Source: Nitrososphaerota archaeon
GTDB lineage: Archaea > Thermoproteota > Nitrososphaeria > Nitrososphaerales > Nitrosopumilaceae
Reading direction: 5' to 3'
NCBI GenBank assembly: GCA_021323705.1
Contig: JAJPKL010000038.1
Span: 1-64,000, forward strand
DNA length: 64,000 bases
Position numbers and translations under genes: made by a program. Numbering within the stretch: position 1 is the first letter of the stretch; each line of letters begins with the position of its first letter. The notes beneath the pieces are model-generated. The model was not told the DNA's origin. It ran no database searches and worked only from the letters and a program-made list of their open reading frames with translations. This document shows positions 53,842-57,808 of this stretch, piece by piece.

Positions 53842-55755
53842 GTGGCTTCGATAGATTTAACCTGGGTTATCGGTGGCCCGCAGGGAGGAGGAGTAGAGTC
53901 TGCTGCCAACATATTTGCTGGAGCTTGTGCAGGCTGTGGATTGAAGATTTTTGGAAAAAGAGAATATTATTCTAATATCAAAGGTGAGCACAGCTACTTT
54001 GGTGTACGAGTCTCTGACAAGACAATCAACTCAAATGTGACAGGAATAACAATGCTTGCAGCATTTGACGCAGAGACTCTTTTCAGACATGCAGATGATG
54101 TATATGATGACGGTGCAATTGTATACGAATCTGATCTTGAGAACATCAAGACTGATGAGGTGCCAACCCTTGACAAGCCATTCAAAGCACGATTGGAAAA
54201 ATACATTGCATCAAAAAACAAACCACTTACTGTAAAAGGAATACTGGAAATAGCAAAGGAACGTGGAGTAACACTCTATCCGGTATCATTTAAGACTATT
54301 TTAGCAACGTTGGCAGATGAGATGAACAACCCCGCAATACGAGGCATGTTCAGAATGTTGAACGTTTTGTCGGTATCCGTGTCAATTGGCCTGCTTGGCC
54401 TTCCTCCAGATACACTACTACGATCAGTTGAGGGAGTATTTTCAAGCAAACCAAAGATTGCGGAGATGAACAAACATGCAGCAAACTATGCATATAATTT
54501 TGCAACAGCCAAATATCAAAAATACAAATACCAGCTATCAAAAATTCCAAAAGATTCTGACACAATCCTTGTGCAAGGTTTTCAATCTACAGGTCTTGGA
54601 AAAATGGCAGCAGGATGTAGATTCCAGTCATACTATCCAATCACACCCGCATCAGACGAGAGTGTCTTTTTAGAATCGCACGAAACATTTGACGTGGAAA
54701 ACAATAGGCCGGGATCTACTATTATTGTTCAAACTGAGGATGAGATCTCTGCAATAGGTATGCTTATAGGAGCTGCCCTGACAGGTACAAGAGCTGCAAC
54801 TAGTACATCAGGACCTGGATTTTCTCTCATGGCAGAAGCGCTTGGGTGGGCAGGAATTAACGAAGTGCCAATAGTTGTTACACTTTACCAAAGAAGTGGC
54901 CCATCCACAGGGCTACCTACAAGACATGGGCAGGATGACCTACTCTTTGCAATACATGCAGGGCACGGAGATTTTCCAAGGATTGTTTATGCCTCAGGAG
55001 ACATTGAAGAGGGATTCTACGACACTGCAAAATGCTTCAATTTTGCAGAAACATTTCAGATGCCTGTGATTCACATGATGGATAAATTCATTGCAAGCAC
55101 TGTAGCTACTGTAAAAAGATTTGATCCAAAAAAGATAACAATCCAGCGGGGAAAGCTCTTACAAAAAATAGACAGCACAGATTACAAGAGATTTACGCCC
55201 TCGCCTGATGGTATATCGCCACGGTCACGACTGGGACTAGAAAACGGCATATTTTGGAACACTGGTGATGAAAGCGATGAAGAGGGACACATATCCGAAG
55301 ATCCAATAAACCGAATATACAAGATGGACAAGCGGGCAAAGAAGCTTGAGGTTGCCTTGGATACCATTCCAAGAGAAGACCAAATGGTAAGTCATGGTAT
55401 TTCTGACTTTTGTATTGTAAGCTGGGGTTCTACCAAAGGACCAATCCTTGACGCAATCGAAATGCTACAAAAAGACAACTATAACGTTGGATTTGTACAA
55501 GTAAAACTATTGCATCCATTTCCTACAGAACATGTCAAGTCTCTACTTAAAGACGTCAAAACCATTATAGATATTGAAGCAAATCATTCTGCACAGCTTG
55601 GAAAACTATTAAACGAAAACTTGGATCGTAAAGTTGATTATTATATTGTCAAGTACACTGGAAGGGCAATGACTTGTTCAGAATTATATGAATCTATTAA
55701 GAAAATTATGGACGGAAAAGCCGAGAAAAGGCAGGTGTTGTCATATGGTGTCTAG
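53842..55755 (+). CDS. korA: 2-oxoacid:ferredoxin oxidoreductase, fused gamma-alpha subunit
   Basis: [91 protein letters not shown] start. Confidence 0.94.
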
Positions 55756-57808
55756 CTTATCAGATTACAAGACTGAAGTACATAATGACTGGTGTCCAGG
55801 ATGTGTGTTGCCAGACACACTTCTTCACTGTAATCCATCAGTAAAACAAATCCAGCAACTCAAGGTAGGAGAACGAGTTCTTGGTAGGGATGGCCTTTAT
55901 CACAAAGTAAATGAGATAATGACGCACATTCACAGAGGAAAACTCTTCAAGCTTGTCACAAAATGTTTTGGGGTAACATATCTCACAGATGAGCATCCCG
56001 TATTGATAGTAAGACGCGAACACGAAAAACTACACAACAAAAAGTTTAATGCCATGTGGACCCGTGCAGACCAGATTAACACAAAGGACTATCTAGTATA
56101 TCCTATTCAAAAAGAAGAGGTAGATCGAGACTATATAGAGATTGATTACCAGTTAAAAGAAAAAGATACTGTATCAAAATCTCTTCCGGATAAAATCCCA
56201 CTAAATGAAGATGTTCTACGATTGATGGGATATTACATTGCTGAAGGATACGTGCATAAAAGAGAAATACATTTTACTTTTAATTCAAAGGAGACTGAAT
56301 TTTTAGATGACGTTGCAAATATCATGTCTAAAACATTTGGTCTTGATGGAACAAAAAGTACCAAAAGAAATGCAACTACAATCACCTTCAATTCGGCGCC
56401 TCTTGGAAGGATCTTTTTGGAATGGTTTGGTCACAAATCATACAACAAAAAGATACCGCATTTTGCAATGCTTCTTTCTGTACAAAAACAGAAAAGTCTA
56501 ATCAAAGGTCTCTGGCGCGGTGATGGATGGATTAGCACAGAACAATCACGTGGTAACTTTAAGACAACATCGAAGACCTTGTCAGAGCAACTAAAAACAC
56601 TTTTGCTAAGACAGGGAGTGGTTCCAATAATTACTATAAACAAAAAATATGGAATTCATCGTGAATCCTATTCGATTCAGGTTGGAAATGATAGGGACTT
56701 TGCAGTGTTGTGTACAATACTTGATGAAAAGTTAGAACCCAGAAATCATATAGGCAAGTCACCTTCGTCAATTATTACGCCGGATTATGTGCTGATTCCT
56801 GTAAAAGAGATTGAGAGTTTTGACTATGATGGAATGGTATACAACTTGGAAGTAGATGATGTCAACTCGTATGTGTCCGAAAATGCGATCTTGCATAACT
56901 GTGGGGATTTCGGAATTGTAAATGCTATTCAGATGGCATTAGCAGAAATGGAAGTGCCTCGTCACAAGGCAGCAATTTTTTCAGGGGTTGGATGTTCAGG
57001 CAAAACCTCGCATTACGTAAATGTCTATGGTGTGCACACCTTGCACGGAAGAGTGTTGCCTTTTGCTCAGGGCGCCAAGCTTGCAAACCCTGAGATGACA
57101 GTAGTTGCAGCAGGTGGCGACGGGGACGGGCTTGGAATAGGGGCAGGTCATTTTGTGGCAGCAGGAAGGAGAAATGTTGATATGACTTATTTGATATTCA
57201 ACAATGCAGTTTACGGTCTCACAAAAGGTCAGGCCTCTCCAACTCTGAAACTTGGCCTAAAAACAAAATCGCTTCCAGAGCCTAATGTGAACCAATCAGT
57301 CAATCCAATTGCATTAGCAATAGCTAGTGGTTTTACATTTGTTGCGCGAGGATACGCCTATGATGTGAGACACCTAAAGGACTTGATCATCGCAGCAGTA
57401 AAACACAAAGGACTTTCTTTCATCGATGTACTTCAGCCCTGTCCTACGTACAATGATATCAACACAAGAGATTGGTTTGCAGGCATGGATAACATTGACG
57501 AGATAACAAAAAAACCACATCCAAGAATTTACAAACTAGATGACACTGGATATGACCCGGTTGTACACATTGATTCACCAGATGAAGAAAATGACAAGTT
57601 GACACAAGCTCTCATAAAATCAAACGAATGGGATAGCAAAATCCCAATTGGAATATTCTACAAAAACGAGATAATTGCTCCATATGATGAAAGAATCGCA
57701 GACAGGATTCCCAATTATCTTGAAAACCCCCCTGCCTACCAAGAGATAGAGTCTAACGGTAGGTCCCTGACTGACATTTCAAAAATTCTAGATGCGCTCA
57801 GGGTCTAG
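55745..57808 (+). CDS. korB: 2-oxoacid:ferredoxin oxidoreductase beta subunit, intein-containing precursor
   Basis: Exteins HNDWCPG / [39 protein letters not shown]...[14 protein letters not shown]; frame open through the intein. Confidence 0.95.
55802..56899 (+). other. Intein (366 aa) with LAGLIDADG-type homing endonuclease motifs, inside korB
   Basis: Starts Cys1 ([36 protein letters not shown]), block B-like [22 protein letters not shown] and [38 protein letters not shown], then Cys+1. Confidence 0.95.

Follow-up and report, generated by a model that had tools for sequence, protein, structure and literature searches.

A predicted class-1-type intein with a LAGLIDADG homing endonuclease in the CXGC motif of an archaeal 2-oxoacid:ferredoxin oxidoreductase beta subunit

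Described inteins at comparable sites

The intein junction reported here has a described counterpart in the MoaA intein of Pyrococcus abyssi, the splicing of which is controlled by a disulphide between Cys-3 and Cys1 (Callahan 2011, as described in PMC10663303 and PMC3922620). In that intein, an extein Cys-3 is combined with the catalytic Cys1 and the host is an oxygen-sensitive oxidoreductase, as in the case of KorB. However, the hosts are different, redox control was measured in MoaA, and the two inteins are likened by junction geometry, not by sequence. The mycobacterial SufB intein, which has been reported to be a sensor of oxidative and nitrosative stress (PMC5874633), likewise resides in an Fe-S related host protein, and it is likened here by description, not by sequence. 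SufB assembles clusters, whereas KorB is an enzyme of central carbon metabolism.

With respect to the fold, the best matches to the KorB intein are the TliVMA and PhoVMA inteins (7qsu, 7qss, 7qst) and PI-PkoII (2cw7). They share the Hint domain and the LAGLIDADG endonuclease, but their hosts are V-ATPase or DNA polymerase and their identity to the KorB intein is about 14–19%. The nearest clade outside the KorB site is formed by inteins of archaeal IscU/NifU proteins (L078, L080; SH-aLRT 90). Like the KorB intein, they are inserted in front of a Cys that is conserved in an Fe-S protein (GNP[VI]/CGDLM; insertion points are marked by a slash), but they have another host, lack Cys-3, and are about 31–33% identical.

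A second intein is present in the genome under study, in a class II (B12-type, NrdJ-type) ribonucleotide reductase (L001, G000:C3:37533-38624). It is inserted at TNP/CGEQ, which we take to be the commonly known ribonucleotide reductase intein site. It extends from C1 to HN/C, like the KorB intein, but is distant from it in the tree.

A search of the open-licence literature for inteins of KorB/OFOR, NuoI, Thaumarchaeota or AOA yielded nothing relevant. At the level of open-licence full texts, this matches the initial annotation, in which KorB was not counted among the commonly cited intein hosts. Provisionally, KorB is thus regarded as an unreported intein host and insertion site.

The korAB locus and the insert in korB

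In the window (the whole stretch of 64,000 nucleotides of DNA that was analysed), korB is a single open frame (ORF 55688-57808), and its true start is the ATG at 55745, which overlaps the korA stop. The locus has the following features:

53842..55755, plus strand: korA, 2-oxoacid:ferredoxin oxidoreductase alpha subunit, a gamma-alpha fusion (NF041170, E 2e-263, above cut-off; Pfam POR, POR_N, PFOR_II)
55745..55801, plus strand: korB N-extein, 19 aa (from the sequence; relatives share the N-terminal stretch)
55793..55795, plus strand: codon of Cys-3, first ligand Cys of the CXGC loop (from the sequence; CXGC cluster ligation in StOFOR2, PMC5020499)
55802..56899, plus strand: predicted class-1-type intein of KorB with a LAGLIDADG endonuclease, 366 aa (profiles, conserved residues, model and fold matches)
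55802..55804, plus strand: Cys1, block A (CVLPDTLL), invariant in 24 inteins
55985..55996, plus strand: block B TxxH (T62-D-E-H65); neither T62 nor H65 varies in 24 inteins
56222..56248, plus strand: LAGLIDADG motif 1 (LMGYYIAEG, acid E148), lost in G142 (LIGYMLVAGG)
56507..56527, plus strand: LAGLIDADG motif 2 (GLWRGDG, acid D241), D to N in G142
56831..56899, plus strand: region of blocks F and G, ending with His365-Asn366, with N366 invariant in 24 inteins
56900..57808, plus strand: korB C-extein from Cys+1 (CGDFG...), the second CXGC ligand (NF041171 match 404-704; beta subunit of PDB 5b48/5b46)

The korB exteins match NF041171 (2-oxoacid:ferredoxin oxidoreductase beta) with an E of 4e-130, above the cut-off. 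After joining, they align nearly end to end, and across the junction, with 5b48 and 5b46 of Sulfolobus tokodaii (best E 7e-115). The CXGC cluster motif, the TPP-binding domain and the beta C-terminal domain were all recovered from profiles, the PDB alignment and the literature. In StOFOR2 of S. tokodaii, Cys12 and Cys15 of the CXGC loop ligate the proximal [4Fe-4S] cluster, which is the only cluster of the enzyme (PMC5020499), and therefore the insert parts two cluster ligands, Cys17 and Cys20 of KorB (numbering after joining). A single korB locus was detected in the genome. An ammonia-oxidising archaeon is the most likely host, given that the genome also carries archaeal amoA and that its relatives bear the names Nitrosopumilales or Thaumarchaeota.

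The KorB sequence reads ...NDWCPG, followed by the 366-aa insert (C1VLPDTLL...NAILHN366) and by CGDFGIVNA. The insertion is in phase 0, has exact boundaries (55802-56899) and comprises 366 in-frame codons. Two Pfam profiles match the insert: Intein_splicing (1.3e-10), which exceeds the curated cut-off, and LAGLIDADG_3 (E 5e-17). The AlphaFold model of the intein alone has a mean pLDDT of 90.8, and its best PDB matches found with Foldseek are intein-endonucleases, i.e. the TliVMA intein (7qsu, TM 0.78), PI-SceI and PI-PkoII. The model of the full precursor was of low confidence (pLDDT 59.9) and was left unused.

Cys1, the TxxH of block B, the HN/C end, the Hint fold and the exact insertion are all as in class 1 inteins. 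Block F deviates, as the window intein has VYN instead of VYD and thus lacks the Asp that usually assists splicing, and Asn is found where many inteins have His; this may affect the rate of splicing. The block F Asp position varies among inteins, and such a deviation does not exclude class 1 membership. Two motifs with acidic residues (LMGYYIAEG and GLWRGDG) are present, as in LAGLIDADG homing endonucleases.

The initial annotation had placed an intein in KorB at WCPG/CGDFG, and this proposal is borne out by Pfam, Foldseek, AlphaFold and the recurrence at the same codon. Its class 1 features (Cys at the start, ILHN at the end, followed by Cys) also stand, with C1 and N366 invariant in 24 inteins. 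Hint-fold similarity, the absence of which would have spoken against it, is clear (Intein_splicing, LAGLIDADG_3). The proposed location in an Fe-S Cys motif can be refined to the CXGC loop itself (PMC5020499). As judged from the sequence, it is confirmed that 55802-56899 encode a class-1-type intein in the CXGC motif of korB. Our preferred reading, which we give a probability of about 0.93, is that the insert is a bifunctional class-1 intein, probably active, whose LAGLIDADG homing endonuclease directs it to the korB site.

The same korB codon is occupied in 24 species genomes of the families f1, f2, f3, f4 and f59 (Nitrosopumilaceae, Nitrososphaera-type and other archaea); 23 of these alleles stem from a class-wide sample of 400 genomes and one from a phylum sample. 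Cys1, Thr62, His65 and Asn366 do not vary among the 24 inteins, and all share the junction WC(-3)[PA]G/C1 (24/24). Two subgroups can be distinguished. The first, which comprises the window intein and those of Nitrosopumilaceae, Nitrososphaera-type archaea and G731, ends with LHN. The second (families f4, f2 and f59) ends with SGN, SSN or CGN, and has the F-block His as well as the block F Asp. Cys10 was considered as a conserved redox element of the intein, and was ruled out because G731 and the f2/f4/f59 subgroup have Ser or Ala instead. In a congener, G142, both endonuclease acids are lost and the compared splicing residues are kept, a pattern that is as expected if splicing were required but homing were not.

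A congener KorB intein that has lost both endonuclease acids is located at L015:1501-2571 (minus strand). It has diverged fast, being 58% identical to the window intein, versus 93% for KorB; its frame is still open and the splicing residues are kept.

Distribution and mobility

KorB was found in 191 of 200 family genomes, in most of which its frame runs through about 320 aa without a break, and a full-length insert was present in 11 of the 200 (58–100% identity). In the empty alleles, the flanks run continuously without the insert. The 24 KorB-site inteins form one clade versus the inteins at other sites (SH-aLRT 99). In the sampled Nitrosopumilaceae, among which carriers are over-represented, at least nine gains/losses were counted on the KorB tree. 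Across genera, the synonymous divergence of the intein was lower than that of the extein (pS 0.59 vs 0.76 for the genome under study and G027, 0.56 vs 0.77 for G007 and G053); most pairs were saturated, and only unsaturated ones were used. Furthermore, the intein of G151 is rich in GC (GC3 0.56) although the korB that harbours it is AT-rich (0.35 in the extein), and the G731 intein lies outside the clade of its own family (p-AU 3e-85).

The patchy presence, the synonymous divergence, the base composition and the tree conflict argue for horizontal homing. The intein tree also follows the genera in part, and therefore vertical descent with many losses contributes to the distribution. In our reading, the KorB intein has probably spread horizontally by homing, while vertical inheritance and loss form the backdrop. 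In the endonuclease region dN/dS is low where it is measurable, which, together with the intact acids E148 and D241, suggests that the endonuclease of the window intein is active. No confirmed relatives of the KorB intein were found in IMG/VR viral contigs, and no vector was identified, as phage and plasmid matches were only about 20–28% identical and concerned unrelated genes. A clear co-conversion tract was not seen in the korB flanks.

Splicing, redox and inteins at metal-ligand cysteines

According to the preferred reading, korAB would be translated into KorA and a KorB precursor of about 687 aa. Cys1 would attack the Gly-1 bond, and the acyl group would pass to Cys+1. Asn366 would then cyclise and the exteins would be ligated, which would restore DWCPGCGDFG and free an intein of about 42 kDa. 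The [4Fe-4S] cluster could be built only after splicing. The target of the endonuclease would be the empty site in korB, which is strongly conserved and directly precedes the codon for the second CXGC Cys; its recognition would lead to homing among related archaea. We infer that splicing occurs and that the endonuclease cuts. As in the initial annotation, there is strong reason to infer that the unspliced precursor is inactive, because its ligands Cys17 and Cys20 are held 366 aa apart.

It is rather unlikely that the insert serves as a redox gate, a notion that sharpens the suggestion of the initial annotation that splicing could gate central carbon metabolism and could respond to redox or metal. 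In that case, oxidation would induce a disulphide between Cys-3 and Cys1 (CPGC across the junction) that blocks the first splicing step, and the oxygen-sensitive oxidoreductase would be protected in its precursor form until conditions in the cell are reducing. The Cys-3/Cys1 geometry is exactly that of the disulphide-controlled P. abyssi MoaA intein, as described in PMC10663303 and PMC3922620, Cys-3 is found in 24 of the 24 KorB inteins, and the presence of a single korB copy also fits a gate. However, a KorB without an intein also needs Cys-3 for its Fe-S cluster. As Fe-S ligation already demands this residue, its conservation is not evidence of regulation, and the CxxC pair of Cys-3 and Cys1 may be incidental. 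Related inteins at NuoI site b and in B12-radical SAM, ABCE1, Mrp and radical SAM activase-like proteins also have a Cys-3, but those at NuoI site a and in IscU lack it. In addition, Cys10 of the intein is not conserved across the subgroups, most relatives are devoid of the intein, so gating would be dispensable, and the features of a mobile element (an apparently intact endonuclease, a patchy presence) suffice as an explanation.

It is very improbable that the insert stays in place as a stable domain of a KorB that functions unspliced. The frame is indeed open throughout, but the two ligands of the sole [4Fe-4S] cluster are split apart (PMC5020499), the splicing residues do not vary even though G142 shows decay of the endonuclease, and the insert is missing in most relatives. 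Homologues that keep the insert as a stable unspliced domain, which the initial annotation would have taken as a refutation of the intein, were not seen; the relatives are without the insert. An assembly chimera or contamination, for which the fragmentation of the genome into 44 contigs could be invoked, is practically negligible, as 23 further species genomes have the insert at the identical codon with diverging sequences, and extein and intein share one frame that adjoins korA.

Relatives of the KorB intein at other sites often precede a Cys of NuoI (two positions), NuoB, IscU/NifU, Mrp/NUBPL or ABCE1 proteins. Further hosts with Cys sites are B12-radical SAM, radical SAM activase-like, molybdopterin oxidoreductase and zinc-finger-like proteins; some hosts of related inteins were named by eye, from motifs only. 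From family knowledge, we take the Cys at the NuoI, NuoB, IscU, Mrp, ABCE1, radical SAM, molybdopterin and zinc-finger-like sites to be metal-binding. Other relatives reside at non-metal sites, in Hel308 (Ser+1), S-adenosylmethionine synthetase, topoisomerase and a GHMP kinase-like protein. Among the best-scoring Pfam inteins of the same class that were inspected, Thr or Ser occupies +1 in nearly all, mostly at P-loops, and only one has Cys+1; this contrast is rough and uncontrolled, and it is confounded because Cys+1 inteins must sit at a conserved Cys and few Cys are as conserved as metal ligands. It seems unlikely, albeit conceivable, that an archaeal intein lineage has specialised on metal-ligand Cys (KorB, NuoI twice, NuoB, IscU, ABCE1, Mrp, radical SAM, molybdenum oxidoreductase), with several CxxC junctions and with splicing that depends on the redox or metal state of the cell ahead of cluster assembly. 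If this were true, inteins would time the maturation of electron-transfer enzymes.

Several additional intein arrangements were observed. Three NuoI-like genes (L111:1-2787, L110 and L145) have two inteins in one ferredoxin motif, inserted before the first Cys (YGR/CVFCGLC) and before the third (CVFCGL/CVDACPF). In L153, L154, L161, L172 and L149, inteins are located between the tandem cysteines of NuoB (ETAC/C...HN/CSVEVGAA). The inteins in the ABCE1 ferredoxin domain (L096, L097; CIGCGI/C...HN/CVKKCPF) are shorter (320 aa), and their endonuclease is possibly degraded. In L173, a pyruvate:ferredoxin oxidoreductase beta-like protein is interrupted in its TPP region by an intein of a different kind (NEAYMN/...HN/TGIQRSGATPHGA). 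Genomes of family f4, which belongs to the same order, are very intein-rich, with up to 11 Intein_splicing matches each (e.g. G701, G618, G693).

A regulatory reading of the KorB intein is attractive, if unproven. With KorB, the range of intein hosts is extended by an Fe-S enzyme of central carbon metabolism, and the position of the insert is one at which the cofactor must be disrupted. The KorB intein also offers another natural Cys-3/Cys1 junction for testing a redox trap, in archaea that live with oxygen. The 24 occupied alleles, the many empty ones, and the one that has lost the endonuclease acids and kept the splicing residues form a ready control set.
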